Assembly (NCBI GenBank): GCA_029252555.1
Contig: JAQXBF010000039.1
Coordinates: forward strand, 62,001 to 126,000
Origin: Porticoccaceae bacterium
GTDB taxonomy: Bacteria > Pseudomonadota > Gammaproteobacteria > Pseudomonadales > Porticoccaceae
Length of the DNA stretch: 64,000 nt
Direction of reading: 5' to 3'
Shown: positions 38,792-54,405 of the stretch, piece after piece
Layout of the letters: the number at the start of each line of letters is the position of its first letter
Numbering within the stretch: the first letter of the stretch is position 1
Notes under the pieces: model-generated
What the model was told of the DNA's origin: nothing
The model's input: only the letters and a program-made list of their open reading frames with translations
The model's database searches: none
Program-made: the position numbers and the translations under genes

Positions 38792-39388
38792 TTGGTGCTT
38801 CGCTTTATCGAATCTTCAAAGTTACCCACCCGCTGGGGCACCTTTGATATCCATGGCTTTGAAGACCCTTTTAAGGGTAAAGAGCATATTGCCATTACCA
38901 TGGGAAACTGTGCTGCAGATGAGCCCCTGCTGATTAGAATCCACTCTGAATGCCTCACCGGCGATGCGCTGGGTAGCTTGCGTTGTGATTGTGGAGAGCA
39001 GTTGCAAGAAGCAATGAAGCGTATTTCTGAGTTGGGTCGCGGCGCTATTTTATATCTGCGCCAAGAGGGCCGTGGCATCGGTTTGGTCAATAAGATCCGC
39101 GCTTACAATCTTCAGGACCAGGGTGCGGACACGGTTGAAGCCAATGAGCGATTGGGTTTTGGTGCTGATATGCGTGATTATTCTATCTGTGCCCCTATGC
39201 TAGAGCACCTGGGTGCCGCTGAAGTTCGTTTGATGACCAATAACCCGCGCAAGATTAAGGCCCTGAAGGAGCTGGGTATTAATGTGGTGGATCGCGAGCC
39301 GATTCAGGCCGACAGCAACCCTCACAATGTTCAGTATCTGTCGACCAAAGCGGGCAAGTTAGGTCATATGTTTAAGGAAGAGAAATGA
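38792..39388 (+). CDS. ribA: GTP cyclohydrolase II
   Basis: This 198-residue enzyme opens GTP to start riboflavin synthesis. The zinc ligands are Cys54, Cys65 and Cys67 in [20 protein letters not shown], followed by [29 protein letters not shown] and [10 protein letters not shown]. Length matches E. coli RibA (196 aa). It starts at TTG or the next GTG after CGGAG and overlaps hisF by 4 nt. It complements the inactive-looking cyclohydrolase domain of RibBX. Confidence 0.95.
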
Positions 39389-40155
39389 GCCTAGCCAAGC
39401 GTATTATTCCCTGTCTGGATGTGGATAAAGGCCGTGTGGTTAAAGGTGTCCAGTTTGTTGATATTCGCGATGCCGGTGACCCTGTTGAGGTGGCTCGCCG
39501 CTACAACGAGCAGGGCGCAGATGAAATTACCTTTCTCGATATTACCGCCAGCCATGAAGACCGCGATACCACATTGCACACGGTGGAACGCATGGCTGGA
39601 GAGGTCTTTATCCCATTGACCGTAGGCGGTGGTGTCCGCGAGTTGCAGGATATTCGCAATCTGTTAAATGCCGGGGCCGATAAAGTGGCTATAAATTCTG
39701 CGGCTATTAAAAACCCGGAGTTTGTCCGTGAGGCCGCCGATAAATTTGGTTCTCAATGCATTGTTGTGGCTATTGATGCCAAGCAGATTAAGCTGGGCGA
39801 TAACGCCCGCTGGGAAATCTTTACCCATGGTGGTCGCAAGCCTACCGGTATTGATGCTATTGAATGGGCAGAGAAAATGACGGCTTATGGTGCAGGCGAA
39901 CTATTGCTAACCAGCATGGATCGCGATGGCACCAAAAATGGTTTTGATCTCAAGCTGACTTCGCGCATAAGTGATGCTGTCAATGTGCCCGTTATCGCCT
40001 CTGGGGGTGTTGGCAATCTGCAGCATCTTGTAGATGGCGTGGTGGAGGGCAAAGCCGATGCTGTTTTGGCGGCCAGTATCTTCCATTTTGGCGAGCACAC
40101 AGTTCCAGAAGCCAAGCAGTATATGGCCGAGCGCGGAATTAATGTTCGTCTCTAA
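39385..40155 (+). CDS. hisF: Imidazole glycerol phosphate synthase subunit HisF
   Basis: The 256-residue TIM barrel makes imidazole glycerol phosphate and AICAR in histidine synthesis, with ammonia from HisH. Asp12 in [15 protein letters not shown] and the Asp of VVAIDAK (about 131) are the catalytic pair. [10 protein letters not shown] and [11 protein letters not shown] bind phosphate. It is separated from any other his gene in this window, which is unusual because hisF normally follows hisA; ribA is its operon partner (4-nt overlap). Confidence 0.95.
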
Positions 40156-40223
40156 CCTATTTGCCTTTTAAATAGGCATAGCTCTACCCTTCTGTTTCCC
40201 CATGAAATTTTTAAGCACGAAAG

Positions 40224-40245
40224 AAACCGCGCTTGCGCACGGTTT
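40224..40245. terminator. Hairpin between hisF and chrR
   Basis: AAACCG and CGGTTT flank GCGC-type inner pairs, with a pyrimidine-rich tail (CTTTCG) on the minus strand, 36 nt after the chrR stop. It may end both convergent transcripts. Confidence 0.4.
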
Positions 40246-40280
40246 ACATAGGGTACTGCTTTTTGAGGCGACCAAAACAC

Positions 40281-40952
40281 TTACATCGGGCTGATTCGCA
40301 ATAACGGTTTCATCAAGAACCCTAGGGGATTTGTTAGCTTAATCGGAGCTTCAAGTGCAGACAGACAAATACATTCGCCGTTTTGGGCACCCATTGGCTG
40401 GTGAACATCACCGGGCTGGCGAGTCAAAAAGTCGCCCTCTTTGTACACTGCCGACTCGTCCGAAAAGCTGCCTTTTAAAACAACCGTGTACTCCAAGCCA
40501 TGGTGATCATGCTTGGGCGTCTTGCCGCCAGCACAGATTCGGTGCAGGGCAACCTCAAAGTCTTTTTGACCGGTTTTAAACCGCGCTATATCAACCGAGG
40601 CAGATAGACGCTTCCAGATGGGAGTGTAGTCTTTGTTCTTGATCAGCTTGCTCACTGCCAGAGGGAAACCTGCCACTGGTTGCTCGCTAACCACTACAGC
40701 CGGCTGCTCGGCCGCCTCGGCATGATCGATCTTGGCCATAACTGTGTCAAACAGCTTGTCGTCTATTATAGCGGGCTCAGCTTCAGTCATTAACTGAGAG
40801 CCAACCTGCTCCAGACGCATTAGCTCGGTGCGGCACTGTTCACAGAAGTGCAGGTGAGCAGAGACACAGATTGATTCTGCTGTGCCAAGGGTGCCGGCAG
40901 CGAATTCTATTAACATTGCTTTGTCTGGATGATGGGTTAGGTGTTTACTCAT
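40281..40952 (-). CDS. chrR: ChrR-type zinc anti-sigma factor
   Basis: This 223-residue protein has an N-terminal zinc anti-sigma motif His33-x3-Cys37-x2-Cys40 and a C-terminal cupin (KHDHHGLEYTVVLKGSFSD with HxHx3E, and GDVHQP). This is the layout of Rhodobacter sphaeroides ChrR, which binds RpoE and releases it under singlet oxygen. It lies directly downstream of and overlaps the sigma gene by 8 nt, as expected for the pair. Length (213 aa in Rhodobacter) agrees. Confidence 0.92.
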   Translation of the reverse strand: MSKHLTHHPDKAMLIEFAAGTLGTAESICVSAHLHFCEQCRTELMRLEQVGSQLMTEAEPAIIDDKLFDTVMAKIDHAEAAEQPAVVVSEQPVAGFPLAVSKLIKNKDYTPIWKRLSASVDIARFKTGQKDFEVALHRICAGGKTPKHDHHGLEYTVVLKGSFSDESAVYKEGDFLTRQPGDVHQPMGAQNGECICLSALEAPIKLTNPLGFLMKPLLRISPM

Positions 40953-41607
40953 GGGTTAACTCGTCTTGGTATTCTGGGGAGACAAGAATCTGCATCTTTT
41001 GCAGAGCTAGTCGAACTCTTGATTTAACAGTTCCCAGCGGTAAGCCAAGCTCTTCCGAGGCTTCGGCGTGGGATTTTCCTTCCAGATAGACCTTACGCAG
41101 AATCTCATCCTGCTCTTTTGGCAGCTGCGAAAGCGACTCTTGAACCTTGCTCTCGCTGCGTTTTTGTCTCAGCAGAGAAACCGGCGTGTCTTCGTCCGGT
41201 TCATGCCAATAGTCTTCATTTTCTAGAGGGAGGTGTTGGGTGTTACTCTTGCGGCGTAACATATCAATGCGGCAGTTTCGCGCTACGGTATAAATCCAGG
41301 TCGTTGCCGATGCTTTCTCTGAATTATAACCGGCGGCCTTCTGCCACACTTTAATCATTACTTCCTGCACAAGATCTTCGCTTAATCCAGGAAACCAGCC
41401 TTGATGGCGGTTGGCCTGGGCAAAGCTTTTGAGTAAGGGTGCAAAATGATTAAAAAGCTGAGCAAAGGCCTGACGATCGCGATCTTCACCCACAGAAATC
41501 AAAAGAAGACTCCACTCGTCTGAGCGCTTCTCAGGGGCATTTAAAACTGCGACTTTGCCAGTCACCTGATTATTGTTATCTACGATATCGACGGTTTTTC
41601 TCAACAT
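40945..41607 (-). CDS. rpoE: ECF sigma factor, RpoE/ChrR type
   Basis: The 220-residue product has sigma region 2 (RQAFAQLFNHFAPLLKSF, EDLVQEVMIKVWQKA, TWIYTVARNCRIDMLRR) and region 4 (LSQLPKEQDEILRKVYLEGKSHAEASEELGLPLGTVKSRVRLALQ). It belongs with the ECF factors whose anti-sigma is ChrR, which respond to singlet oxygen. A TGATCC-N18-TAAAGG element precedes it, indicating autoregulation. The N-terminal about 30 residues are extra to the core and the true start could be a little later. Confidence 0.9.
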   Translation of the reverse strand: MLRKTVDIVDNNNQVTGKVAVLNAPEKRSDEWSLLLISVGEDRDRQAFAQLFNHFAPLLKSFAQANRHQGWFPGLSEDLVQEVMIKVWQKAAGYNSEKASATTWIYTVARNCRIDMLRRKSNTQHLPLENEDYWHEPDEDTPVSLLRQKRSESKVQESLSQLPKEQDEILRKVYLEGKSHAEASEELGLPLGTVKSRVRLALQKMQILVSPEYQDELTHE

Positions 41608-41634
41608 GCTTTCAATCCTTCTGCTACCTTAACA

Positions 41635-41664
41635 CCTTTACGAGGCTTTGGGCCTTTTGGATCA
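41635..41664 (-). promoter_or_regulatory. Predicted sigma-E autoregulatory promoter of rpoE-chrR
   Basis: On the minus strand TGATCC (41659-41664) and TAAAGG (41635-41640) are separated by exactly 18 nt, ending 27 nt before the sigma gene ATG. TGATCC is the -35 element known for RpoE/ChrR-controlled genes in Rhodobacter. Confidence 0.65.
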
Positions 41665-41743
41665 CCCAAACTGCTCTGCCTAGACAGTTTCAATGTGCTG
41701 ATAACACTGTATTATCGAGGGCATCAAAAAAAACGAGCCTGAA

Positions 41744-42667
41744 ATGTCCAGAAAACTGCCGCCTCTCAATGCACTGCGCACCTTTGAAGCCGCTGCACGC
41801 CTGTCCAGTTTTACCAGTGCTGCCGAAGAGCTGTGTGTTACCCACGGGGCTGTGAGCCAGCAAATTAAAACCCTGGAAGACTATTTTGGTCAGCCCTTAT
41901 TTGACCGAGTTCAGGGTAAGGTGGTGCTCAACAGTGCCGGGATCGATTTGCTGCCGGCTATCAGTAGCAGCTTGGATCGCATTGAAACTGCCAGTTCAAA
42001 AATTAGTCTGGGCAGCGAGTCTGAAATATTAACGGTTAATTTAACGACCACCTTTGCCTCTAATTGGCTTATTACTCGATTGCGTGATTTCCAGCAGCGG
42101 CATTCGGATATTGTGGTGCATCTGGCACCCTCCCCAACCTTTCCCGACAGCTTGGGCAGGGGTGTCGATGTGGCGATTCGCTGGGGAGCCACTAATGTGG
42201 CCAATGTGAAAGTGGAGAAGTTAATTGACGTAGATACCTTTGTCGCCTGTGCCCCGAGCCTGATAAATGGTGAAAAGCCATTGCGCAGGCCCAAAGATTT
42301 ACTTGATCACAGTTTGATCCATGATGACGATGGGCAGGCCTGGCAGATTTTATTGCAGGAGCTTGGGGTGGAGGGGCCTAAGGTGGCCAAAGGCCTGTTC
42401 TATGCAGACTCTGGTCTGGCGCTTCAAGAAGCGGTTGAGGGTAATGGGTTAATCGTAGCCGGGAGCCTGTTAGCAGCGCAGGATTTGGAGGCTGGCCGTC
42501 TGGTGATTCCGTTTGACTGTTTTATCCCCCATCGCAAAGACTACCATCTCTATTATCCCGCGCACTCTGCCAGCCAGCGCAAGGTGGCTCTTTTTAGTGC
42601 CTGGATCCATGAGCAGGCTGCTAGTTACCAAAATATTCCTAATGATTATGGCCGTTTTATGGTTTGA
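41744..42667 (+). CDS. LysR-type regulator, GcvA-like
   Basis: This 307-residue protein has an N-terminal winged helix-turn-helix (LPPLNALRTFEAAARLSSFTSAAEELCVTHGAVSQQIKTLE) and a LysR effector domain. The N-terminus is very like GcvA, the glycine-cleavage regulator, but many GcvA-like paralogues control unrelated catabolic genes. It is divergent from rpoE-chrR and lies upstream, in the same direction, of the aminotransferase-BKACE locus, whose likely regulator it is. A palindrome at 42750-42764 may be its operator. Confidence 0.88.
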   Translation: MSRKLPPLNALRTFEAAARLSSFTSAAEELCVTHGAVSQQIKTLEDYFGQPLFDRVQGKVVLNSAGIDLLPAISSSLDRIETASSKISLGSESEILTVNLTTTFASNWLITRLRDFQQRHSDIVVHLAPSPTFPDSLGRGVDVAIRWGATNVANVKVEKLIDVDTFVACAPSLINGEKPLRRPKDLLDHSLIHDDDGQAWQILLQELGVEGPKVAKGLFYADSGLALQEAVEGNGLIVAGSLLAAQDLEAGRLVIPFDCFIPHRKDYHLYYPAHSASQRKVALFSAWIHEQAASYQNIPNDYGRFMV

Positions 42668-42749
42668 GGGCTGTTTGCTGGGCTTATAGGTCGAATGCTT
42701 TTTCTTGCTTTCGCTGGATCAAGATAGCGGTTCTTTATATTGATGCTAT

Positions 42750-42764
42750 GTTAGAAATTCTAAC
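42750..42764. promoter_or_regulatory. Palindromic operator candidate (GTTAGAAATTCTAAC)
   Basis: The 15-bp sequence is a perfect palindrome around a central A and contains T-N11-A, the core of LysR sites. It lies about 87 nt before the aminotransferase start and 83 nt after the LysR gene. Confidence 0.5.
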
Positions 42765-42850
42765 AAGTTATGCTAAAAATTATCGATTGCTGCAGCCTTT
42801 GTGCTGGTATTAAGCTAACAGCCTAATATCGTTAATGAGATACCAGATAA

Positions 42851-44203
42851 ATGTTGCAGTCCCCAAGTCGTATTTTCCACCGCAATCTAAAGTCTAATCT
42901 ACCTGTTGCCAAGGCAGGTGATGGGGTTTATATCCTTGATCAACAGGGTAACCGTTACTTGGATGCCTGCGGTGGTGCTGCGGTTTCTTGTCTGGGCCAC
43001 GGTCACCCCAGGGTGATTGGCTCAATCAAGCGTCAGCTTGATTCTATGGCCTATGCTCACAGCGGCTTTTTTACTTCGGAACCCGGTGAAGAGCTAGCCG
43101 AGTTTTTGGCCCAGCGGGCACCAGAGGGCATTGAGCATGTCTATTTTCTTTCTGGTGGCTCTGAAGCAGTGGAAGCGGCGCTTAAAATGGCGCGGCAGTA
43201 TTTTCTTGAGGCCGATCAGCCCAGTAAACAAAAGTTTATTGCCCGCCGACAAAGCTATCACGGCAATACATTGGGTGCTCTAGGTGTCAGTGGCAACAAA
43301 TGGCGCCGTCAGCAGTTTGAACCATTATTGATGGATGTTGATCATATTAGCCCCTGTTACCCCTATCGTGATCAGCGTGATGGTGAGGCTGAGCGGGACT
43401 ATGGCCTGCGTGTGGCCAATGAGCTCGAGGCTAAAATTGAAGAGATGGGGGCAGAGAATGTAATCGCCTTTATCGCCGAGCCTGTAGTGGGTGCCACCGG
43501 CGGTGTACTGGTTCCGGTGCCTGGCTATTTCAAGCGTATCCGCGAGATATGTGATCGTCACGATATTCTTTTAATACTGGATGAAGTGATGTGTGGCATG
43601 GGCCGCACCGGCTCATTGTTTGCCTGTGAACAGGAGGGGGTACGCCCTGATATTATCACTCTGGCTAAAGGGTTGGCCGGGGGTTATCAGCCTATTGGCG
43701 CGACTCTCTGCTCTAATCAAATCTACAGCCAGTTCCGTGACGGCTCCGGTGCGTTTCAGCATGGTCACACCTATGTGGGCCATGCTACGGCGTGCGCTGC
43801 CGCGCTGGCTGTACAGCAGACTATCGAAGATGAAAACCTGCTAGAAAATATCAATCGCATGGGGGAGGCTCTTAATCTAGCGCTGCATGAGCGCTTTGGT
43901 GAACACCCATTTATCGGCGATATCCGCGGGCGCGGCCTGTTCCAGGGTTTGGAATTGGTGGCGGACCGCGGCACTAAAGAGCCGCTGTCGCACCAGTTAT
44001 CTGTTGCCGCCGCGATTAAGCGACACGGCATGGCCCAAGGTCTGGCCTGTTATCCCAACAGCGGAACTATCGATGGTCTGCGCGGTGATCATATATTGCT
44101 GGCACCGCCGTACATTATCGAACACAGTCATATTGAAGAGATGACCGAGAAGCTTGGCATGGCATTGGACAGTGCATTAAAAGAGGTGGGAGTGATGGTT
44201 TGA
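42851..44203 (+). CDS. Class III (omega-type) PLP aminotransferase
   Basis: The 450-residue fold-type I enzyme has YLDACGGAAVSCLGHGHP, SGGSEAVEAALKMARQ, RRQSYHGNTLGALG, LILDEVMCGMGRTGS and ITLAKGLAGGYQP with PLP lysine Lys273. This places it among omega-amino acid/aspartate aminotransferase family proteins that act on amines away from the alpha carbon or on dialkyl amino acids. The exact substrate is not predictable. It overlaps the BKACE gene by 4 nt, suggesting that its keto product or amino substrate is a beta-keto or beta-amino acid handled by BKACE. Confidence 0.9.
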   Translation: MLQSPSRIFHRNLKSNLPVAKAGDGVYILDQQGNRYLDACGGAAVSCLGHGHPRVIGSIKRQLDSMAYAHSGFFTSEPGEELAEFLAQRAPEGIEHVYFLSGGSEAVEAALKMARQYFLEADQPSKQKFIARRQSYHGNTLGALGVSGNKWRRQQFEPLLMDVDHISPCYPYRDQRDGEAERDYGLRVANELEAKIEEMGAENVIAFIAEPVVGATGGVLVPVPGYFKRIREICDRHDILLILDEVMCGMGRTGSLFACEQEGVRPDIITLAKGLAGGYQPIGATLCSNQIYSQFRDGSGAFQHGHTYVGHATACAAALAVQQTIEDENLLENINRMGEALNLALHERFGEHPFIGDIRGRGLFQGLELVADRGTKEPLSHQLSVAAAIKRHGMAQGLACYPNSGTIDGLRGDHILLAPPYIIEHSHIEEMTEKLGMALDSALKEVGVMV

Positions 44204-45021
44204 GCTCTTTGACGCCAATGATGATTGCGGTGGCACCCAATGGTGCTCGCACGCAAAAGACTGACCATCAGGCTCTGCCCATCACGCCAGCCGAGTTAGC
44301 AGAGACTGCGGTGCAATGTCGAGATGCGGGTGCCTGCATGATTCATTTACATGTGCGAGATGCGCAGGGTGGGCACTCTCTGGATGTGGGTGCTTACAGG
44401 TTGGCCACCACAGCGGTGCGTGATGCAGTGGGGCAGGAGATGATTATTCAGGTCACCACGGAAGCCGTGGGCATTTATAATGTGGATCAGCAGATCCAGA
44501 CCGTTAAACAGTTAAAGCCTGAGGCTGTTTCACTGGCAATACGTGAGCTATGTGCTGATTCAGGGGACGAAGTTAAAGGCGCTAATTTTTTTAGTTGGTT
44601 GCAGCGAGAGAGAATTAGCCCTCAGTATATTCTTTACTCTTTGGAGGATGTGTTGCGTTTTAATTCGTTGCGGCAGCGGGGAATAATCCCTGGTGACAGA
44701 GTCTCTGTGCTCTATGTGCTTGGTCGCTACAGCGATACAGGCACATCGTCGCCGGAGGAGCTAATGCCTATGTTTCAGGCTACTGACGCTGGTGTGGTTT
44801 GGTCTGTGTGCGGTTTTGGTGCGGCCGAGGGGGCCTGTATGCTTTTGGCGGCGGACCTTGGCGGGCATGCGCGCGTCGGTTTTGAAAATAATATGCAGTT
44901 AGCTAATGGTAAATTAGCGTTAGATAACAGTGCATTAGTTGCCCAGCTTGCTTCGGGCATTGGTGGTTTGCAACGTAGAATTGCTTCGGGTTCAGAGGCT
45001 AGAGTTTTTTTAGGGCTCTGA
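44200..45021 (+). CDS. BKACE (3-keto-5-aminohexanoate cleavage family) enzyme
   Basis: This 273-residue TIM-barrel enzyme condenses acetyl-CoA with a beta-keto acid, giving acetoacetate and a new CoA ester. Zinc ligands are the two His of MIHLHVRDAQ and the Glu of VGFENN. APNGART near the N-terminus is typical. It starts at TTG, overlapping the aminotransferase stop. Different BKACE members accept quite different beta-keto acids, so the name does not mean lysine fermentation here. The aminotransferase-BKACE pair points to breakdown of an unknown amino compound. Confidence 0.9.
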   Translation: MSSLTPMMIAVAPNGARTQKTDHQALPITPAELAETAVQCRDAGACMIHLHVRDAQGGHSLDVGAYRLATTAVRDAVGQEMIIQVTTEAVGIYNVDQQIQTVKQLKPEAVSLAIRELCADSGDEVKGANFFSWLQRERISPQYILYSLEDVLRFNSLRQRGIIPGDRVSVLYVLGRYSDTGTSSPEELMPMFQATDAGVVWSVCGFGAAEGACMLLAADLGGHARVGFENNMQLANGKLALDNSALVAQLASGIGGLQRRIASGSEARVFLGL

Positions 45022-45146
45022 AAGCGTCAAGAGGTGATAAAAAAAGGATGTAGGGAGTGACGAAGGGTTTTTATTCGTCGGATAGAAGAATATGCTGCTT
45101 GAGTAGCATCAAAGTAAAAACAAATACAATTTTTTTGGGGAGTAAC

Positions 45147-47558
45147 ATGACTTATTTTAAAAAAGCCTCGTTAATAGCGGTGGCGATTTCTGGCGTTGTG
45201 GCATCAGCACAACCAGCATTTGCACAGGGTGGAGAGTCTGCCGAATTAGAAGAAGTAGTAGTAATGGGCAGCAGAAGTAACAAGCCTCGTTCTGCCACTG
45301 ATTCAACAGTACCTGTTGATGTATTCTCTGAAGCTGAGTTATCGGCTTTTGGTAATACGGCAGATATCACTGATACATTGAAGGCATTGGTACCTTCTTA
45401 CACTGCCACACCTGCAACTGGCGATGGCAGTGCGTTTATTCGTCCTACTTCTCTGCGTGGTATGGCACCTGACCAAGCATTAGTTTTGGTGAACGGTAAG
45501 CGTCGTCACCGTTCAGCACTGGTGCAGTTCTTCGCTCCAGCAGCAGGTAACGGTGCCCATGGTGTTGATGTGGCTATGATTCCTGGCATTGCACTGAAAA
45601 ATATCGAAGTTCTGCGTGATGGTGCAGCGGCTCAGTACGGTTCTGATGCTATTGCTGGGGTAATGAACCTGCAACTGAAAGATGCCTCTGAAGGGGGTTC
45701 TATTCAGGTTCAGCACGGTGAGTTCTTTGAAGGTGAGCAGTCTACAAGAGTTGCTGCTAACGGCGGTTTTGCTCTGGGTGAAGACGGGTTCTTGAACCTT
45801 AGCTTCGAAAGCGTTGATAACGATGCACTTTCTCGCGGTATCCAGCGTCCTGTTGGTCAGGGCTTGATTGATGCCGGTGTACCCAATGTTGGTGCCGATT
45901 CTCCTTTTGGTGATGCACCTTTTGTGCAGAGTTGGGGCCGTCCGGAAACCAGTGGCGATCGTTTGTTCTTTAACGCTGGCGTAACGGATCCAAACAGCGG
46001 TGTTGAGTTATACGCTCATGGTGGCTACGCAGAGACTGATGGCCGTTACCGTTTCTTCTACCGTGCTGGCTATGACAGCGATTGTACGGCTGGACACAGC
46101 ACCATCAGTGCGCTTTGTCAAGATCCTAACTGGGTACAGGGCACTTTGCGTCAGGGTTACACGCCATACCTGGATGGTGCTCAGACTGATATCACTCTTG
46201 TTGGTGGTATGCGCGGTGAGATGGATTCTGGTATGACCTATGACATCAGCTTGGCTCGTGGTTCTAACGAACTGCGCTACATTCTGAACAACACCACAGC
46301 CCCGAATCAGGGTGTCGCCGCTGATGGTAGCTTCCAGCGTGACTTTAATCTGGGTGGCTATGATCAAGAAGAGGTTAACTTTAATGCCGACTTCAGCAAA
46401 GCTATTGGCTCTGATAAGAATCTTGGCTTTGGTGTTGAATGGCGTGAAGAAACTTTCACTACAGTGCCTGGTGAAGTTGCAGCAATCAACGGCAATACTA
46501 GTGGCATGAGCAGTGTTAAGCCAGCAGATGCCGGTGCATTCTCAAGAGACAATGTGGCTATTTATGCTGATCTAGAGCACGATATTAGCGATGACTTGCT
46601 AATGCAGTACGCGGTGCGTTACGAAGATTTTTCTGATTTCGGCAGCACAGCAAACGGTAAGGTAGCTGGTCGTTACACTGTTAGCGATAGCCTTACATTG
46701 CGTGGTTCTATGTCTACAGGCTTCCATGCACCTACTCCTGGTCAGGCTAATGTAAGTACTGTTATCACCACCTTTGATGGCACGACAGGCTTGCAGGTTG
46801 AAGAAGGTTTGGTACGTCCAACAAGTGCAGCGGCACTTGCGGTAGGTGGAGCTCCTCTGAAAGAGGAAGAGTCATTTAACATAAGCCTTGGTCTTACTAC
46901 TGAACTCAGTGATAACACTACGCTGACCTTTGATATGTATCAGGTTGCGGTTGATGATCGAATCTATCGTACTGGTGACATCCCCAATGGCACTGGTGGT
47001 TCGGTTTCTTTTTATACCAATGCATTGGACGTAGAGCATCAGGGCTTTGATTTGGTTCTGTCTTCTTCGTTCGAAGTTATGGCAGGTATTGAGACAACAG
47101 CTAGCTTGGCCTTTAACCACAACACAATCGAAGTGACTGGTCAGAAGACTATCAATGGCGTTAAGCCAGTGAGAGATTCACTGATTGAAGATATTGAGAA
47201 TAACTACCCAGAAAACCGTTGGGTGCTTAATACCATGACCAATATCAGCGATGATCTGAGCCTAATGGCCCGCCTGAATTTCTATGGCGAGCACTATGAT
47301 GAGCGTGGCACTATTGGTGCAGATTCGTCTCCATCGGCGCTCATTGATAGCATTGTCTACTTGGATATCGAACTGGGTTATGATGTCAACGACAACCTGC
47401 GAATCACTGCTGGTGGCTCTAATATCCTCGACGAGTACGTTGATGAGATTGGCGCACCCAATGCCAACCGTATGAGTGTGGGCCTGCAATACCCACGTCG
47501 TACCGCGGCAAACTACGAAGGTGGTTCTTGGTATTTGCGAGCTAACTACAGCTTCTAA
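45147..47558 (+). CDS. TonB-dependent outer-membrane receptor
   Basis: The 803-residue product has a signal peptide (MTYFKKASLIAVAISGVVAS...FA), a TonB-box-like ELEEVVVMGSRS, a plug domain (IEVLRDGAAAQYGSDAIAGVMN) and a beta barrel ending in NYSF. GGGG-AG precedes the ATG at 45147; the frame upstream from 45057 has no signal peptide. Such receptors import large substrates, iron complexes, peptides or glycans. Its neighbours (aminotransferase, BKACE, symporter, peptidase) suggest import of a nitrogen-containing compound. Confidence 0.92.
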   Translation: MTYFKKASLIAVAISGVVASAQPAFAQGGESAELEEVVVMGSRSNKPRSATDSTVPVDVFSEAELSAFGNTADITDTLKALVPSYTATPATGDGSAFIRPTSLRGMAPDQALVLVNGKRRHRSALVQFFAPAAGNGAHGVDVAMIPGIALKNIEVLRDGAAAQYGSDAIAGVMNLQLKDASEGGSIQVQHGEFFEGEQSTRVAANGGFALGEDGFLNLSFESVDNDALSRGIQRPVGQGLIDAGVPNVGADSPFGDAPFVQSWGRPETSGDRLFFNAGVTDPNSGVELYAHGGYAETDGRYRFFYRAGYDSDCTAGHSTISALCQDPNWVQGTLRQGYTPYLDGAQTDITLVGGMRGEMDSGMTYDISLARGSNELRYILNNTTAPNQGVAADGSFQRDFNLGGYDQEEVNFNADFSKAIGSDKNLGFGVEWREETFTTVPGEVAAINGNTSGMSSVKPADAGAFSRDNVAIYADLEHDISDDLLMQYAVRYEDFSDFGSTANGKVAGRYTVSDSLTLRGSMSTGFHAPTPGQANVSTVITTFDGTTGLQVEEGLVRPTSAAALAVGGAPLKEEESFNISLGLTTELSDNTTLTFDMYQVAVDDRIYRTGDIPNGTGGSVSFYTNALDVEHQGFDLVLSSSFEVMAGIETTASLAFNHNTIEVTGQKTINGVKPVRDSLIEDIENNYPENRWVLNTMTNISDDLSLMARLNFYGEHYDERGTIGADSSPSALIDSIVYLDIELGYDVNDNLRITAGGSNILDEYVDEIGAPNANRMSVGLQYPRRTAANYEGGSWYLRANYSF

Positions 47559-47622
47559 TTTTCAATAAGAAATAGCTGAGCAGGCTCATATAAGTTTCTC
47601 TTTATAGCGATAAGGTTAAATT

Positions 47623-48906
47623 ATGAGTCTGACTCAGCGAATAGTGACAGCAATGCTTTTGGGCCTGCTGATGGGGGCCCTTCTTAATTTTCTCTCCAGT
47701 GGAAATCTACTTTCGGCTGGGCTGCTAAGCTGGCTTGATCAATATCTGGTCAATGGCTTATTCGATACCGTCGGGCAAATCTTTGTTCGCTCATTAAAGC
47801 TTCTGGTAGTGCCTCTGGTCTTTGTCTCACTGATTTGCGGTGTCTCGGCTCTTGGCAATAACTCGCGCATGGGCGCTGTTGCCTCCAAGACTGTGGCCCT
47901 GTATATGACCACCACTGCGGTGGCTATTGCACTGGCGATTTTTGTCGCTGTGATTGTCCAGCCCGGAGTCGGTATTGACCTGGCTTTGGCAACCGAATTT
48001 GTCGCAAAAGAAGCACCGCCTCTTAAAACCACCATTATTAATATTTTCCCCAGCAACCCTATTCAGTCAATGGCAGAGGGAAGTATTCTTCAAGTTATCG
48101 TGTTCTCGCTGTTGATGGGCTTTGCTATATCCAAAAGTGGAGAGCAGGGTGAGCGGGTAGCGACTTTCTTCAATGATGTAAATGAAGTCATCATGAAGAT
48201 GGTCATGTTTTTGATGAACCTGGCCCCGTACGGCATTTTTTGCCTGCTGGCGAAACTGTTTGCTGGTGTGGGTATAGCAATGATTCTTAGTCTCGCCAAA
48301 TACTTCTTTACCGTTTTCTTTGTGCTGCTGGTGCACAGCTTTGGTGTCTACTCATTTATTTTAAAAAGCTTTACTGGACTCAGTGTGCGGACTTTTCTCA
48401 GCAAAATGCGCTCGGCACTGATGTTTGGTTTCAGTACCGCCTCCAGTGGTGCGACCCTGCCCGTAACCCTGCGCACGGTTGAGAAAAGACTGGGGGTCAA
48501 TAATAGTGTGGCTTCATTCACTGTGCCCCTGGGTGCGACTATCAATATGGATGGCACCGCGATTATGCAGGGTGTCGCCACGGTATTTATCGCTCAGGCC
48601 TACAATATTGGTTTGGGCTTGGATGGTTATCTAACTGTTGTTTTGACCGCGACACTTGCCTCTATCGGCACAGCTGCTGTGCCTGGCGTTGGCTTGGTTA
48701 TGCTGGTGATGGTGCTTAACCAAGTAGGGTTGCCGGTTGAAGGCATTGGCCTGATTATCGGCGTAGATCGCCTCTTGGATATGACCAGAACAGCCACCAA
48801 TATCACTGGCGATGCCATGGTGACAACCGTGGTAGCCAACAGCGAAGGCTTGCTCGATAGGGATATTTTTAATGACCCTGAAGCAGGTATTATTAGAGAG
48901 GTCTAG
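47623..48906 (+). CDS. Dicarboxylate/amino acid:cation symporter (DAACS family)
   Basis: This 427-residue inner-membrane transporter has about eight helices and two re-entrant loops with FSTASSGATLPVTLRTVEK and GATINMDGTAIMQGVATVFIAQ, the substrate and cation motif of GltP/DctA-type carriers. It imports an amino acid or dicarboxylate with sodium or protons. It sits between the TonB receptor and the dipeptidase, so it probably takes up a product of the same pathway. The exact substrate is not predictable. Confidence 0.92.
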   Translation: MSLTQRIVTAMLLGLLMGALLNFLSSGNLLSAGLLSWLDQYLVNGLFDTVGQIFVRSLKLLVVPLVFVSLICGVSALGNNSRMGAVASKTVALYMTTTAVAIALAIFVAVIVQPGVGIDLALATEFVAKEAPPLKTTIINIFPSNPIQSMAEGSILQVIVFSLLMGFAISKSGEQGERVATFFNDVNEVIMKMVMFLMNLAPYGIFCLLAKLFAGVGIAMILSLAKYFFTVFFVLLVHSFGVYSFILKSFTGLSVRTFLSKMRSALMFGFSTASSGATLPVTLRTVEKRLGVNNSVASFTVPLGATINMDGTAIMQGVATVFIAQAYNIGLGLDGYLTVVLTATLASIGTAAVPGVGLVMLVMVLNQVGLPVEGIGLIIGVDRLLDMTRTATNITGDAMVTTVVANSEGLLDRDIFNDPEAGIIREV

Positions 48907-48968
48907 GCTGAATATTGGTGCTATGCTTAGGTTTGATTTGAACCATAGTATTCAGGGTATAGCGCACG

Positions 48969-50345
48969 ATGAACCAGTTTCAACCAATCGACAGACAGCT
49001 CTCAAGGGCAAATCCGACTGCCTATGGCAATGAAATAGCATTGCTCTACCAGCGCCATATCGCTGAAAAAATGTCGCGCTTTCAAGGCATTCTGGAGGCC
49101 ACCGGTTATCAAGAGCTTTTGCTTGGGTCCGGTGAAACCAAAATGCAATTTCAAGATGATATGGCTTACTCGTTTAAAGCCAATCCTTACTTTCGTGAGT
49201 GGGTGCCTCTGGCTACCAGAGCGGGCTGTTACTTGCAGATTTCCGCTGGTGCCAGCAAGCCGCGATTATTTCTGCTAACCGTGGAAGATATCTGGCATAC
49301 GGCGCCAGAGAGCTTGCCCGCGGGGTTTGAACAGGCCTTTGAGATCATTGAATATGCCAGTATTGACGAGGTTAAGAAGTATCTCGACGGTGTGGGTGTG
49401 GCATTTATTAATGAAACCAATGAGCTTGAGGCTATAGCTGAAGACTGGAACCCCCCAGCTGTTATCCATCAAGTTGATTATCAACGCAGGGGTAAAACCC
49501 CCTACGAACAGGAGGCTATCCGTGAGGCTAATCGACGCGCTGCGCCGGCCCATCGAGCTGCCCAGCAAGCCTTTATGGAGGGGGCTTCTGAAGTGCAAAT
49601 TGCCGCGGCCTATCTTGCCGCTTGCGACTGCCGAGAGAGTGAAATGCCCTATGGGATTATCGCAGGGGTAAATGAGCATGCAGCGGTATTGCATCACCAT
49701 AATTTATTCAAGCAGCCCCAGACACCGCGCAGCTTTTTGATTGATGCAGGGGTGGAAGTCTATGGCTACGCCTCAGATATTACCCGTACCTATGCCTATG
49801 ACTCGGGCTGCGATTTTGCCGCCATGATCGAGTTGATGGATAAGAAACAGCTAGAGCTCTGTGCTGAGGGTGGTATTGGCAAAAGCCCAGTGGATATCCA
49901 TGTGCGTTCCCAGCACAAGATTGCCGAGATATTAATTGAATTTGATGTGCTAAAAATGTCACCAGAAGAAGCGGTTGCGAATGATATTGCGTCTTCTTTT
50001 TACCCCCATGGGTTAGGGCACCACCTTGGCTGTAATGTGCATGATAAAGGTGGTCAGCTCGCCAACCCTCAGGGTGATATTCTGCCGCCACCAGAAAAAT
50101 ATCCCAAGCTTCGTTCCGGCGCACCTATGGTAGCTAATCAAATTCATACGGTGGAGCCCGGGCTGTATTTTATCCCTGCCTATTTGGAGAAACTCAAAGC
50201 GGGCGAGCATGCCAATTCAATCAATTGGTCGCGGGTCGATGAGTTTGTGCCCTATGGCGGTATTCGCATTGAAGATAATATTGTTGTGCATGCCGATGGC
50301 TCATTGGAGAACCTGACTCGTGATGCCTTTGCGGGAAGCCCTTAA
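48969..50345 (+). CDS. pepQ: M24 metallopeptidase, Xaa-Pro dipeptidase (PepQ-like)
   Basis: The 458-residue product has the M24 pita-bread fold with metal ligands in FLIDAGVEVYGYASDITRTY (two Asp), HGLGHHLG (His), VEPGLYF (Glu) and GIRIEDNI (Glu). The N-terminal domain and length match PepQ, which cleaves dipeptides with C-terminal proline and can in some marine bacteria also hydrolyse organophosphates. It shares the stop/start (TAATG) with the short asparaginase-like gene downstream. Confidence 0.88.
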   Translation: MNQFQPIDRQLSRANPTAYGNEIALLYQRHIAEKMSRFQGILEATGYQELLLGSGETKMQFQDDMAYSFKANPYFREWVPLATRAGCYLQISAGASKPRLFLLTVEDIWHTAPESLPAGFEQAFEIIEYASIDEVKKYLDGVGVAFINETNELEAIAEDWNPPAVIHQVDYQRRGKTPYEQEAIREANRRAAPAHRAAQQAFMEGASEVQIAAAYLAACDCRESEMPYGIIAGVNEHAAVLHHHNLFKQPQTPRSFLIDAGVEVYGYASDITRTYAYDSGCDFAAMIELMDKKQLELCAEGGIGKSPVDIHVRSQHKIAEILIEFDVLKMSPEEAVANDIASSFYPHGLGHHLGCNVHDKGGQLANPQGDILPPPEKYPKLRSGAPMVANQIHTVEPGLYFIPAYLEKLKAGEHANSINWSRVDEFVPYGGIRIEDNIVVHADGSLENLTRDAFAGSP

Positions 50346-50830
50346 TGAAGCTGCAGATCATTACCACTGGAGGCACCATTGATAAGCTCTATTTTGATGC
50401 ACTCAGTGAATTTCAAATTGGCGAGCCAGTGGTAGATGACCTGCTTCAGAGAATGAATGTGGGTTTTGATTATTCTGTTCAGCCATTGCTGCGGCTGGAT
50501 AGTTTAGATATGACGGATGACCACCGCCGTCAGATTCAGCAGGCTGTAGAGTATGCTGAAGCGGATAAAATTCTGATTACCCACGGTACAGATGGCATGG
50601 TTGAGACTGCTAAATGGCTAGTGGATATCAAAGGCAAATGTATTTTTCTGACTGGTGCCTTGCAGCCTGCCGCATTCTCCTTCACTGATGCCGTATTTAA
50701 TATTGGCTGTGCGATTGGCGGCTTGCAGTCCAAGCCGCCCGGAGTTTATATCGCCATGAGTGGCCAGGTATTTGTCGCCGACCAGGTGGTTAAGAATCAC
50801 GCTGAAAGCCGGTTTGAAGCTGTAAATTAG
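50345..50830 (+). CDS. Short asparaginase-domain protein
   Basis: The 161-residue product matches only the N-terminal domain of type I/II asparaginases. Both catalytic threonine motifs are present, TTGGTID (about 7-13) and THGTDGM (about 79-85), but the C-terminal domain (another about 170 residues) is missing. Short asparaginase-domain proteins of this size are known as a family, so it may be functional rather than truncated. It overlaps the convergent acyl-CoA ligase by 4 nt. Confidence 0.82.
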   Translation: MKLQIITTGGTIDKLYFDALSEFQIGEPVVDDLLQRMNVGFDYSVQPLLRLDSLDMTDDHRRQIQQAVEYAEADKILITHGTDGMVETAKWLVDIKGKCIFLTGALQPAAFSFTDAVFNIGCAIGGLQSKPPGVYIAMSGQVFVADQVVKNHAESRFEAVN

Positions 50831-52500
50831 GGTTCTATATTTAGCGCTGCCAGTGCTTGCTGTTTTATCTGTAACTTATAAATTTTTTCTGACGCTGTTC
50901 TTGGCAATGCTGTATCGGAGACTTGAATATATCTGGGTATTTTAAACCTGGCGACTCTGGCGGCTAAAAACCCCCGCAACTCTGCGTCGTCGATATTTGC
51001 ACCATTGCAGTAAATAGTGCTTCCGACTTCTTCGCCTAGGCGTTGGTCCGGCACTGAGTAGACTGCAGCCTCACGTATTTGCGGGTGTTCTAGCAGAGCA
51101 GCTTCAACTTCACCGCAACCAATATTTTCGCCACCGCGAATAACCATATCTTTAATGCGGTCGACGATAAATAAATAGTCCTCCTCATCCAGATAGCCTA
51201 CATCGCCAGTTTTAAACCAACCATCAATGTGAGAGTTAGCGGTGGCGTCTGGGTTGTTCCAATAGCCGCGGAACATACTGGCACCGCGAATTTGGACTTC
51301 GCCGCGCTCTCCAGGAGCCAAAATATTGCCCTCTTCGTCGGCAATGCGAATATCCAATACTGCTGCTGGTTGCCCTGAACTGCCTGGACGTTCCAGATAG
51401 TTTTCGCCTGCTATAGTCGTGCCTATAGCATTGGTCTCAGTCATGCCCCAGCCTGTGTTGGGCATGGCGTTATCAAATACCGCATCAATACCTCGCACCT
51501 GCTCGGGCGAGCGGGCTGCGCCACCACCGCCCACCATCGCCAGGGATGACAGATCATGGCCTCCCTGCTGGGCGCGATAAACTAGGTCGGCAGTCATGGC
51601 AGAGGGCGCGGTAAATGAACTGACTCTCTCTCGTTCAATTAATTGGGCTGCCAGTTGAGGCTCCCATTTGCGCATGAGTACTAGCTTGGTCTGGGAGCGA
51701 AATGCCATCAGGAACATGGCGTGACATCCGGTTACATGAAACAGGGGTACTGCCAGTAAACCGGCAGGCTGAAAGGTAGGGGGCTGCGGCGTTTCACTGC
51801 TCATTAGAATCCAACTCATGATGGTCACTTCCCAGCTCAGCAGGGCACTCATTATCGCTAGATTGCTGGAGACCACGCCTTTAGGGCGCCCAGTGGAACC
51901 TGAGGTATACAAAATAATGGCATCATCCATGGGGGTAATATCTACCGCTGGCATCGTACTACCGGCAAACTTTTTCAGTAGTTGCTCCCAGTGGGGCAAG
52001 TCAGTACTCTGGTCTCCGCGGGTCAATAAACTCTCACAGCTAAGCTTCATTCCAGCCTGCAATATCAGATCAATACGCTCCTGGTCAGCAATCAACAGCT
52101 TGCAGCCACTATTTTGCAGGCCGTAGTCAATTTCCTCTGCCTGCCACAACGAATTCATAGCGACGGCAATGGCACCTACTGAGGTGATAGCCTCAAAGGC
52201 GATAATCCATTCAGGGTAATTGCGCATACAGATGGCCACGCGATCCCCTTTTTGTATATCGTAGTCTGAAACCAGTCCCTGCCCAATCGCACTGGCAATA
52301 CCCCAGATATCGTTGAAGCTATATCGTTCGTCCTCAAATACAACAAAGCTCTCATCGCTCAGGTTCTGTTGAAAGAGTTCACACAGACTGGCAGGGGCAT
52401 TCTTATATGTGCGGCAGTTAGCTCCGTAGACTTCAGTTTCCACTATTTCAAGAGGCTGGCCGGGGGCGGAGAGTGTGGCTAATACTTCGTTGCGATCCAT
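50827..52500 (-). CDS. AMP-forming acyl-CoA synthetase
   Basis: This 557-residue adenylate-forming enzyme has the phosphate motif IILYTSGSTGRPKG (about residues 190-203), GWGMTETNAIG, GWFKTGDVGYLDEEDYLF and VDRIKDMVIRGGENI. It activates a carboxylic acid as the CoA ester. The acid is unknown; the family includes fatty, aromatic and cholesterol-chain acids. It is the only gene in this transcript that clearly belongs to acyl metabolism and lies downstream of a ferredoxin/reductase pair separated by a terminator. Confidence 0.88.
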   Translation of the reverse strand: MDRNEVLATLSAPGQPLEIVETEVYGANCRTYKNAPASLCELFQQNLSDESFVVFEDERYSFNDIWGIASAIGQGLVSDYDIQKGDRVAICMRNYPEWIIAFEAITSVGAIAVAMNSLWQAEEIDYGLQNSGCKLLIADQERIDLILQAGMKLSCESLLTRGDQSTDLPHWEQLLKKFAGSTMPAVDITPMDDAIILYTSGSTGRPKGVVSSNLAIMSALLSWEVTIMSWILMSSETPQPPTFQPAGLLAVPLFHVTGCHAMFLMAFRSQTKLVLMRKWEPQLAAQLIERERVSSFTAPSAMTADLVYRAQQGGHDLSSLAMVGGGGAARSPEQVRGIDAVFDNAMPNTGWGMTETNAIGTTIAGENYLERPGSSGQPAAVLDIRIADEEGNILAPGERGEVQIRGASMFRGYWNNPDATANSHIDGWFKTGDVGYLDEEDYLFIVDRIKDMVIRGGENIGCGEVEAALLEHPQIREAAVYSVPDQRLGEEVGSTIYCNGANIDDAELRGFLAARVARFKIPRYIQVSDTALPRTASEKIYKLQIKQQALAALNIEP

Positions 52501-52615
52501 TGTTGTTTTTATCCTAGTCGAAATTTTATTATTTTTATCAGCCTACTATAGCCTGATTAGCAGGGGAGTTGTGTCATAGAGTTTACAGTCTTGCCAGTGC
52601 TTTTTATCGAGGCAT

Positions 52616-52642
52616 AAAAAAGGCCCCTTTGAGGCGCCTTTT
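52616..52642 (-). terminator. Rho-independent terminator after ferredoxin gene
   Basis: On the minus strand AAAAGG...CC TTTT arms with inner GGC/GCC pairs form a hairpin, followed by a T-run, 46 nt after the ferredoxin stop. Confidence 0.7.
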
Positions 52643-52687
52643 GTGGCTATTTAATAGCAAGCCATTTAATGAGAAGCAGCTTAACCC

Positions 52688-53008
52688 CTAGTACTGAGAC
52701 TCTGGTAGTCGAACAATCATGCCTTCCATCGCTGAGGTGACTTTAACCTGGCAGCTAAGACGGCTATTTTCCTCTCTGACATCAAGCATTTCCAATAACT
52801 CGGATTCATCTGCTGCGGCTATGCCCGCGGCCTCACTCCAAGCTGGGTCAATCATGCAGTGGCAGGTACAGCACACGCAGCATCCGCCACATTCTGCAAC
52901 AATGCCGTCAATCATATTATCCAGCGCGCCCTGCATCAGGCTAACACCCTCCGCTACATTGACGCTATATTCTTTGCCATCGAATTCGATATAGTTTATT
53001 AGGGGCAT
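52688..53008 (-). CDS. 2Fe-2S ferredoxin, adrenodoxin/putidaredoxin-like
   Basis: The 106-residue product has the adrenodoxin-type cluster motif Cys-x5-Cys-x2-Cys in ECGGCCVCCTCHC and a fourth Cys in SRLSCQVKV. The motif is unusually rich in extra cysteines. It begins 1 nt after the reductase stop, giving a two-component electron chain. Such pairs usually feed a cytochrome P450 or a Rieske oxygenase, but neither is present in the window. Confidence 0.9.
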   Translation of the reverse strand: MPLINYIEFDGKEYSVNVAEGVSLMQGALDNMIDGIVAECGGCCVCCTCHCMIDPAWSEAAGIAAADESELLEMLDVREENSRLSCQVKVTSAMEGMIVRLPESQY

Positions 53009-53009
53009 T

Positions 53010-54239
53010 CTAGGACTCCATTATTAATGTCTTTAGTTCAATTGTTTCGTCGGCAAGGCTTTGGCCTTCAGTGGAGGTACCCTGCAATATCAGCTTCTTT
53101 GCCAACATAAAATCTTTTGGTCGGTTGATGCAGTCAGCGGCCAGTATATTGTTATCTTTTAAATAAAACACAGTGAAACTGCGGCTAGCTTTATCTCCTC
53201 TAACCACAGCATCTGTATAGCCTTGGTTCATACCAGCAATCTGAAGTTTGACATCATACTGGTCAGACCAGAACCACGGTAGCTCAGCATATGGCTTTTT
53301 CAGGCCGCAGATGCTGGCAGCCGCCGCCTTTGCTTGCTCGATAGCATTGGGCACAGACTCCAGACGCAGAGTTGTTTGAAGAATCGTATTTGGGTGGTTG
53401 GTACAGTCGCCCGCGGAGACGATATCCGGGTGGCTTGTCTGGGCAAATTCATTGACCAGAATACCATTGTCTACATTGAGTCCTGCTTCCGAGGCCAACT
53501 CTGTATTAGGAATAACACCGATGCCGATAATCACCATATCAGCAGAAACTATATTGCCATCAGAGCACATAACTCCGCTCACTGAACCCTCGCCCTCAAT
53601 AGCAGAGGCTTGAGTATTGAGTTTAATGGCAACGCCCTGTTCCTGATGCAGGCGTAGATAAAACTCGGAGGTAGTTTCTGATGCGACTCTCTGAAGCAGG
53701 CGCGATTCTGTTTCCAATAGGGTGACAGAGAGACCCAGTTTGGTCAGTGACGCCGCGGTTTCTAAGCCTATATAGCCGCCACCAATAATCACGGCAGTTT
53801 TTGCAGAAGCGGCTGATTGCTGAATGCCTTTAACATCATCCATGGTGCGCAGATAATGGACACTCTCAAGGTCAGCACCTGGAATAGGTAATGGGCGAGC
53901 TCTGGCGCCGGTGCAAAGAGCGAGTTTGTTAAAGCTAATCGTTTCTCCATTATCAAGATTTAGCTGATGATTTTGTGTGTCTATCGAAGTCACGCGCACC
54001 CCAAGCTTAAAAGTCACATCAATCTTTTCATAAGCGCCAGCAGCTCGCAGAGCTAATTTATCTTCGCTTGAGTCGCCGGCTAAATAGGCTTTAGAGAGAG
54101 GTGGGCGCTGGTAGGGCATATGGGGTTCGTCACTGATGACAGTGATATTCCCTTCCCAGCCACATTGCCGCAAACTGATCACTAGTTGCACTGCGGCATG
54201 GCTGCCGCCGATAACGACAGTGGATTGATCGTTGGTCAT
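53010..54239 (-). CDS. FAD-dependent ferredoxin reductase
   Basis: This 409-residue flavoprotein has an N-terminal FAD motif VVIGGSHAAVQLVISL, a second dinucleotide motif AVIIGGGYIGLETAASL (NADH) and SAGDCTNHPN near residue 270. It matches the putidaredoxin/rubredoxin reductase group. Electrons pass from NAD(P)H through FAD to the adjacent ferredoxin. It is divergent from the Hsp70-like gene. Confidence 0.9.
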   Translation of the reverse strand: MTNDQSTVVIGGSHAAVQLVISLRQCGWEGNITVISDEPHMPYQRPPLSKAYLAGDSSEDKLALRAAGAYEKIDVTFKLGVRVTSIDTQNHQLNLDNGETISFNKLALCTGARARPLPIPGADLESVHYLRTMDDVKGIQQSAASAKTAVIIGGGYIGLETAASLTKLGLSVTLLETESRLLQRVASETTSEFYLRLHQEQGVAIKLNTQASAIEGEGSVSGVMCSDGNIVSADMVIIGIGVIPNTELASEAGLNVDNGILVNEFAQTSHPDIVSAGDCTNHPNTILQTTLRLESVPNAIEQAKAAAASICGLKKPYAELPWFWSDQYDVKLQIAGMNQGYTDAVVRGDKASRSFTVFYLKDNNILAADCINRPKDFMLAKKLILQGTSTEGQSLADETIELKTLIMES

Positions 54240-54405
54240 ACAAAATATCTCTGCTTTATGATTTGGCAGGCAGTGTAGTCGTAATCGCCTTTTAGGAAAA
54301 CGGCAACATTAAAAATAATCACCCCGCTAGCCCCTGACACAGTTTAAACCGATGAAAATAGTTTAGAATAGGGTTATCGTTCAAACGTTTTCTAGTGACC
54401 TTCCC

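Follow-up and report, generated by a model that had tools for sequence, protein, structure and literature searches.

Several of the described systems closest to the locus examined here contain a transaminase, a β-keto acid cleavage enzyme (BKACE; DUF849 family, Pfam PF05853) or both. In the CORE cycle module around BKACE15 of Paracoccus denitrificans (structure 8RIP), a transaminase feeds the BKACE-family enzyme to give acetoacetate; this engineered pairing, in which a β-alanine:pyruvate transaminase and a BKACE worked together in Escherichia coli, is reported to use malonate semialdehyde (PMC11961710). ObcA (4NNC), a related TIM barrel, is described as an acetyl-CoA-dependent enzyme that acts on oxaloacetate and forms acetoacetate (PMC12871164), and ectoine degradation (Doe/Eut) likewise involves a class III transaminase. 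Here, we analyzed a stretch of 64,000 nucleotides from a Porticoccaceae bacterium (the window; contig JAQXBF010000039.1, positions 62,001 to 126,000, in an assembly of 2.3 Mb), where a class III aminotransferase (AT3) and a DUF849/BKACE-family protein are encoded by overlapping genes behind a LysR regulator gene. Our analysis suggests that these three genes may form a small module that breaks down a glutamate-like β-amino dicarboxylic acid, most likely β-glutamate (3-aminoglutarate)—with a rough probability of 40% for β-glutamate as the substrate of the pathway proposed below. The genes concerned are the following:

41744–42667, plus strand: LysR regulator, GcvA-like, member of the core (NCBIfam GcvA subfamily, 299.9 bits against a cut-off of 288)
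42851–44203, plus strand: AT3, class III aminotransferase of family PRK07483 (Pfam Aminotran_3; NCBIfam, 749.1 bits against a cut-off of 485)
44200–45021, plus strand: DUF849/BKACE-family protein of the 'NGAR' clade (BKACE PF05853, 221.9 bits against a cut-off of 24.8)
45147–47558, plus strand: TonB-dependent receptor (Pfam TonB barrel and plug)
47623–48906, plus strand: SDF-family symporter (Pfam SDF)
48969–50345, plus strand: PepQ-type Xaa-Pro dipeptidase (M24), near OPAA (Peptidase_M24 and PepQ_N; NF010133, 457.6 bits against a cut-off of 339)
50345–50830, plus strand: short asparaginase (Pfam asparaginase N-terminal domain)
50827–52500, minus strand: acyl-CoA synthetase, convergent with the seven genes above and outside the set

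The initial annotation had described seven same-strand genes, counting the LysR gene; all of them are present, and their family assignments were upheld by Pfam and NCBIfam, with the LysR gene sitting upstream of position 42851, where the set had been taken to start. The AT3 and BKACE genes overlap by 4 bases and the PepQ and asparaginase genes by one base, while AT3 and PepQ pass the equivalog cut-offs of PRK07483 and NF010133, respectively. The statement that no characterised pathway matches the set agrees with our literature searches, which found none described. ObcA differs from the window BKACE-family protein (template modeling (TM) score of 0.73, 17% identity) by an N-terminal extension of approximately 200 residues, besides its oxaloacetate substrate. 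Ectoine degradation differs from the window set in that the PepQ protein is of the Xaa-Pro dipeptidase type and the seven genes include neither a deacetylase nor an aldehyde dehydrogenase.

Variation at this site within the family separates the seven genes into parts. Among 112 family genomes, a close BKACE occurs in seven, all in one SAR92-clade genus, and AT3 in seven; the two are found together in six genomes, neither is found in 104, and the two genomes with AT3 only or BKACE only (G023 and G048) are both interrupted by contig ends. Distant BKACE paralogs (29–30% identity) occur in G109 and, as a second copy, in G018. Besides the window, both flanks of the core can be followed, as far as PepQ, in three loci—two with the gene order of the window (L011 and L014) and one with the same order minus the asparaginase (L012)—and in L015 it was followed through a two-piece SDF match, with no PepQ match. 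Since further genomes of the genus share this order, it is more than chance, and LysR lies upstream of AT3 in all six other genus loci where the contig reaches that far (L011–L015 and L029). By contrast, 11 loci in ten genomes (L017–L027) carry an ECF/ChrR pair and directly behind it SDF, then PepQ and sometimes the asparaginase, the LysR, AT3, BKACE and TonB genes being absent in between; among these, SDF is in two pieces in L027, and PepQ is broken or cut short in two loci (L025 and L026) and lies further away in L027. A PepQ–asparaginase pair without SDF is present in L032. The TonB receptor was found in 11 genomes—seven with BKACE, one (G046) ended by the contig, and three without close AT3 or BKACE, where it sits between HisF and ChrR (G024 and G049) or next to HisF on a short contig (G045)—and it accompanies the core also in the distant L045 (59%). 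Because SDF, PepQ, asparaginase and TonB receptor each occur at the site without AT3 and BKACE, LysR–AT3–BKACE is the tight core; the TonB receptor is a usual, non-obligatory partner, and SDF, PepQ and asparaginase are resident genes of the site, the asparaginase being often paired with PepQ. The initial annotation had proposed one route through all seven genes and had named absent co-conservation in a gene-neighbourhood comparison as grounds against it. Co-conservation failed for four of the seven genes; what stands is the conserved AT3–BKACE pair, together with the presence of importers beside many such pairs.

The interval between ribA–hisF and an Hsp70-like gene (window 38792–55836; also L017–L027 and L173–L176) varies strongly in gene content among SAR92-clade genomes and can be called a hotspot, mixing ECF/ChrR, TonB receptor, SDF, PepQ, asparaginase and acyl-CoA synthetase genes in varying combinations. 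The nearest named relative of the window BKACE protein is likewise from a SAR92 clade bacterium (Porticoccaceae).

To gain a broader view of the pair, named genomes were scanned with a BKACE alignment and the best 80 of 169 relatives were kept, relatives having been found through two peptide patterns, one of which included the R of NGAR. These loci, which are not independent (several per genus), comprise 66 of the NGAR clade and, as an outgroup from the same scan, 14 Kce-like ones (L102–L115). In a tree from which L092 (below 200 residues) was dropped despite bearing the clade residues, the remaining 65 clade loci and the window group together at 100/100 support, with the 14 Kce-like rows outside. 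AT3 accompanies BKACE in 40 of the 66 clade loci, including L075, where a contig end cuts it; the two genes lie at most 105 bases apart in 36 of 39 measurable loci and 1.0–1.1 kb apart in L069, L080 and L091. The pairs are spread over Alpha- and Gammaproteobacteria, and AT3 presence is clustered on the BKACE tree yet dispersed through the clade (10 changes versus 27.1 when shuffled). Of the 26 lone-BKACE genomes, 21 were searched: 18 had no AT3 relative at an E value of 1e-100, in two a close relative was encoded elsewhere (67% and 60%), and the last had a relative at 42%. The regulator varies as well, with a divergent LysR instead in eight loci (Oceanospirillaceae, Vibrio and Cocleimonas)—the sole one scanned, in L087, has GcvA as its top model, below the cut-off—and an RpiR gene in many Alphaproteobacteria. 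We also collected 23 plasmid stretches, hand-picked with annotated ones favoured (5 from 20 listed among 98 records, 18 from those listed among 171 and 170 records). AT3 and BKACE occur together in 11 of them, BKACE alone in one (L154), and AT3 with no BKACE within 13–15 kb in the other 11; of the latter, eight show a small gene in the place of BKACE, immediately behind AT3, one has a TAXI-TRAP system (L157) and two have neither (L162 and L169).

Some lone BKACE genes of the NGAR clade have neighbours of their own. In several metagenome-assembled genomes of Gammaproteobacteria (L041, L042, L044, L046–L048, L050 and L054), judged by eye, they are divergent from apparent nitrile hydratase genes, for which Pfam identified alpha subunits in L041 and L046 and a beta subunit in L046; this is probably local synteny of one lineage. 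In Microvirga (L065:9081–10819), an NGAR-clade BKACE gene and a gene resembling L-carnitine dehydrogenase (best model below the cut-off) overlap, the latter possibly being another source of a β-keto acid.

The predicted model of the window BKACE protein, with a predicted local distance difference test score (pLDDT) of 95.0, finds its best fold match in Kce (2Y7D; TM score of 0.88). Both its PF05853 score and its TIM-barrel fold place the protein in the family; its likeness to Kce-type enzymes (TM scores of 0.84–0.88 at 29–31% identity) extends to the two His and one Glu that bind the metal (H49, H51 and E229, for Kce His46, His48 and Glu230, kept as zinc ligands) and to the equivalents of Arg226 and Tyr145 (the latter Y146). 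Nonetheless, the protein misses the cut-off of the Kce equivalog NF052387 (140.9 bits against 382) and differs from Kce at E14 (R17), S82 (T86), G84 (E88), T106 (S111), E143 (I144) and D231 (N230), so that the zinc ligands and Tyr145 expected of a functional BKACE are there, whereas the catalytic Glu and Asp231 are not. The same pattern runs through the NGAR clade: the G84 position is Glu in 67/67 proteins, the E143 position is Ile in 65 and Val in two, and the D231 position is Asn in all 65 covered rows (L083 is misaligned there), with His46, His48 and Tyr145 equivalents in 67/67 and Arg226 and Glu230 in 64/65 covered (the misaligned L083 being the exception). Eight plasmid BKACEs beside AT3 carry the residues of the window protein, save for S in place of T83 in two. 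In the Kce-like outgroup, E143 is Glu and D231 is Asp in 14/14, and E14 and G84 are kept too. Among BKACE paralogs from six genomes, 22 of 30 were readable: 17 keep G84, E143 and D231, another three belong to the NGAR type, and the last two (L143 and L144) are unlike both.

In BKACE15, E171 is the proposed catalytic base, and the E171L variant is reported as inactive, Arg having been proposed in earlier work (PMC11961710). This residue would correspond to Kce E143, if Tyr173 is equated with Tyr145 as in PMC12871164, making the essential E171 an Ile in the window protein. Judged by its sequence, the NGAR-clade protein is not a standard BKACE. The public label '3-keto-5-aminohexanoate cleavage protein' is probably wrong for those clade members that bear it, because they lack the residue essential for that chemistry. 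Other chemistry is within reach of the family: DUF849 groups without BKACE activity are reported, one of them decarboxylating, and another group takes negatively charged substrates (PMC4922564), its Methylobacterium members being likely β-ketoadipate enzymes according to PMC8963497, while BsfD offers a further example of different chemistry in a DUF849 enzyme (PMC12871164). The latter source calls the Tyr145 position universal in BKACEs; the 14 Kce-like proteins of our scan (from Firmicutes, Actinomycetota and others) have Phe at this position and keep the catalytic Glu and Asp.

Importer genes beside the pair bear on the substrate. TAXI/TRAP-permease matches were found in 20 of the 40 AT3-linked loci, in none of the 26 clade loci without AT3 and in none of the 14 Kce-like loci (p = 4e-6 against the 26 and 8e-8 against all 40 others, in loci that are not independent). 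Among the remaining AT3-linked loci, six have a TonB receptor (four of them together with SDF), one a Glu/Asp-type ABC system (L080; binding protein at 308.7 bits, below the cut-off of 375) and one a Gln-type ABC system (L069; GlnH at 394.2 bits, over the cut-off of 303). The TAXI protein of Neptuniibacter matches 8S4J with 479.5 bits—this is VcGluP, a TAXI-TRAP protein described as specific for L-glutamate, whose contacts include Y45, S75, Q93, H123, E125, G156, D157, Y200 and M201 (PMC11574862). Residues were tabulated for 18 predicted open reading frames from 17 loci (L056_8 and L063_8 were dropped as misfits; a closer TAXI in L063, at 67%, was missed by open reading frame calling; L075, L085 and L091 lie outside the table). 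The pair-linked proteins keep the first six contacts in 16/16 fitted rows; they differ from VcGluP by G for S40 in 16/16, Q for D157 in 13/16, T for M201 in 12/16 and a residue other than Tyr at Y200 in 7/16, and the window set itself is without a TAXI gene. Further pair-linked TAXI genes occur in Photobacterium (L151), Vibrio (L152) and Haematobacter (L172). On plasmids, an ABC system with unstated substrate adjoins the pair in Sulfitobacter (L163) and another lies about 3 kb off in Sinorhizobium meliloti (L155), while no importer is annotated near the pair in Limimaricola (L164) and Alloyangia (L165). In the window, the SDF symporter has an aspartate transporter as its best solved match (350 bits); its segment LLDMTRTATNITGD aligns with aspartate transporter 9BGZ, but the protein, at 256.4 bits, falls short of the GltP equivalog cut-off of 638. 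The symporter is probably of the acidic-amino-acid type, for which equivalents of GltPh R397, D394, N401 and D405 would be expected. The recognised importers are thus mostly of a glutamate or glutamine type, from which we infer a glutamate-like substrate; a peptide, which the initial annotation named beside an amino compound, is not favoured.

On this basis, the compound would enter the window host through the TonB receptor and the adjoining acidic-amino-acid-type symporter, and AT3 would transfer its β-amino group to a keto acid, yielding 3-oxoglutarate. The NGAR-clade protein may then carry out a metal-assisted decarboxylation to acetoacetate and CO2 or, alternatively, an acetyl-CoA-dependent cleavage with a relocated catalytic residue, which would give acetoacetate and malonyl-CoA. 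Acetoacetate, a likely product of the AT3–BKACE route and compatible with 3-oxoglutarate by either decarboxylation or cleavage, would be activated by the acetoacetyl-CoA synthetase (AacS) of the genome and split to acetyl-CoA. The window genome holds one AacS over the cut-off, encoded on the window contig (920.6 bits); no CoA-transferase was found in it at an E value of 0.001. Elsewhere, three loci (L087, L093 and L101) show a complete AacS or CoA-transferase gene behind the pair (over the cut-off in L101 and, with broader 3-oxoacid models, for subunits A and B of L087), and L089 shows an 85-residue CoA-transferase fragment; in Pantoea L168, CoA-transferase genes lie 1 kb beyond a C45-family peptidase gene. 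The transaminase of the engineered CORE pairing is of class III, like AT3.

β-Glutamate is favoured since it agrees with the type of importer, with a class III transaminase, with the logic of a β-keto acid and with its marine occurrence. It is reported as a major marine osmolyte, higher at depth than at the surface, and as exceeding every other identified metabolite of Nitrosopumilus maritimus in abundance (730 mM; PMC8269262), and among the papers listed by our searches, no title or abstract opening indicated an aerobic route for its breakdown. If the β-glutamate reading holds, the AT3–BKACE gene pair would be a marker for β-glutamate breakdown, and marine bacteria would feed on what is the main osmolyte in ammonia-oxidising archaea; the plant-associated and soil hosts indicate that the module is not marine alone. 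The looser claim of a glutamate- or glutamine-like β-amino compound as substrate is one we hold rather probable. The full proposition—a widespread, undescribed aerobic β-glutamate pathway, run by marine bacteria on that osmolyte, in which a class III transaminase works with a re-wired DUF849 enzyme (Glu at G84, no E143 or D231) of a new catalytic type exchangeable with a carboxymuconolactone decarboxylase (CMD)-like protein—should be taken as tentative.

Several points weigh against β-glutamate as proposed. The six contacts are present in the control TAXI structures 9OZ4 and 4DDD as well, so that they indicate a TAXI protein of the general glutamate type and not its ligand; the Y45 equivalent is reported in 78% and the Q93 equivalent in 54% of TAXI sequences, and other acids, for instance o-phthalate, are also TAXI cargo (PMC11574862). 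No importer among those searched for was found in 12 of the 40 AT3-linked loci, some of them on short contigs. A small amino acid is an unusual cargo for a TonB receptor, SDF and PepQ are not bound to the core, and in Labrenzia (L169) an AT3 relative without BKACE adjoins a TRAP system annotated for C4-dicarboxylates. The reading of R in place of E14 as an anion pocket is biased, as one scan pattern held that R, and 9 of 67 proteins show G, K, Y or F instead. Loss of E143 and D231 speaks against standard BKACE chemistry, and the enrichment of AacS or CoA-transferase genes is weak (4/40 versus 0/40, p = 0.12, one of the four being a fragment). In Rhizobium L166, an AT3 relative adjoins ectoine genes, so AT3 substrates may differ. 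Finally, we know of no NGAR-clade enzyme with an established substrate.

Concerning the mechanism, the NGAR-clade protein could work like any acetyl-CoA-dependent BKACE and form a CoA ester, E88 having taken over catalysis, to which we give somewhat less than even odds. The invariant His46, His48 and Tyr145, the near-invariant Arg226 and Glu230, the fold match to Kce and the acetoacetate-activating genes near a few pairs argue for it; the E171L result, together with Ile or Val at this position throughout the clade, the Asn at D231 and the reported DUF849 groups without BKACE activity argue against it. So does what stands in the place of BKACE in the eight plasmid stretches mentioned above: the gene passes the Pfam cut-off for CMD in four rhizobial plasmids (L160, L161, L166 and L171), below it in Pantoea (L159 and L168), and without a Pfam CMD match in an E. 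coli plasmid (L167) and an Acinetobacter plasmid (L170), so that a replacement of BKACE by CMD is firm only for the rhizobial branch. The AT3 tree requires two changes between the BKACE and CMD-position partners, and the remaining set in Pantoea (GlnHPQ, C45 and RpiR) equals that of BKACE-bearing rhizobia. If both partners do the same step, decarboxylation would be the simplest common reaction; CMD-family proteins also include peroxidases. The loss of E143 across the clade and the CMD-like gene in the place of BKACE make decarboxylation about as likely as acetyl-CoA-dependent cleavage. Of the products named in the initial annotation, acetoacetate is retained as likely, while the CoA ester is doubtful, the base essential in BKACE15 being absent.

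The AT3 relatives on plasmids show some further surroundings. In the E. coli IncFIA plasmid from urine (L167), the relative and an RpiR gene lie among insertion sequences near aph(3')-Ia; a gltS gene close by was not used as importer evidence, as gltS and a monooxygenase gene stand by an IS4-like transposase and look like transposon cargo; a GlnH fragment is present in this plasmid stretch as well. In R. gallicum (L162:3176–8323), a gene annotated as lysine 2,3-aminomutase precedes the AT3 relative at a distance of 2.6 kb and might encode a glutamate 2,3-aminomutase; suggestive as this is, the stretch is sparsely annotated and was not used as evidence.

Compared with β-glutamate, a different substrate handled by the same logic is a less likely but still substantial option: β-glutamine, an N-acyl or amide form, β-alanine or another anionic β-amino acid, possibly released by an amidase (C45, PepQ or asparaginase). 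A C45 gene and GlnHPQ stand beside AT3 and BKACE on plasmids of Shinella, R. leguminosarum and Paracoccus (L153, L156 and L158) and beside AT3 without BKACE in Pantoea (L159 and L168); L069, with its GlnH over the cut-off, also has a C45 gene, and asparaginase and PepQ adjoin the core in the window. Yet a C45 match occurs in only one of the 66 clade loci (L069) and in no TAXI-type locus, and the window asparaginase and PepQ are separable from the core. The C45-family peptidase (Pfam AAT model, in L153) is thus a companion of GlnHPQ and AT3 across rhizobia, Paracoccaceae and Pantoea.

An ectoine-route role for AT3, as a DoeD-like transaminase on 2,4-diaminobutyrate unrelated to the DUF849 protein, appears unlikely. 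In Rhizobium L166, the AT3 relative adjoins M24, AsnC, M20, EutB and EutC genes, and M24 genes lie near AT3 in the other CMD-bearing rhizobial plasmids and beside the pair in Cocleimonas (L093). Diaminobutyrate transamination, however, produces no β-keto acid, those rhizobial AT3s form a single four-row branch with no BKACE in the stretch seen, and M24/M20 queries match three of the 66 clade loci (M24 in L093, the query itself; M20 in L058 and L073, at about 30%), ectoine-specific genes not having been searched for. For the window, this route was rejected, the AT3 family being its sole link. Least likely of all is one seven-gene route of peptide uptake and hydrolysis followed by transamination and cleavage, rejected on the modularity of the locus despite its tight same-strand spacing and the gene order kept in the genus, given also that the importers recognised beside the pair outside the genus are for amino acids and not for peptides.

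A few features of the window remain to be recorded. The TonB receptor likely starts at 45147 rather than at 45057. Residues 3–160 of the 161 of the asparaginase match the solved structure 8UOO, which we take to be the short Rhodospirillum rubrum asparaginase, and the type I and type II asparaginase cut-offs are missed. Promoter and terminator scans gave no excess over shuffled sequences (10 versus a mean of 11.1, and 14 versus 11.0). Further downstream, positions 55962–59261 encode a fused B12-binding, MeaB and methylmalonyl-CoA-mutase protein of 1099 amino acids, resembling the IcmF-type fused acyl-CoA mutases.

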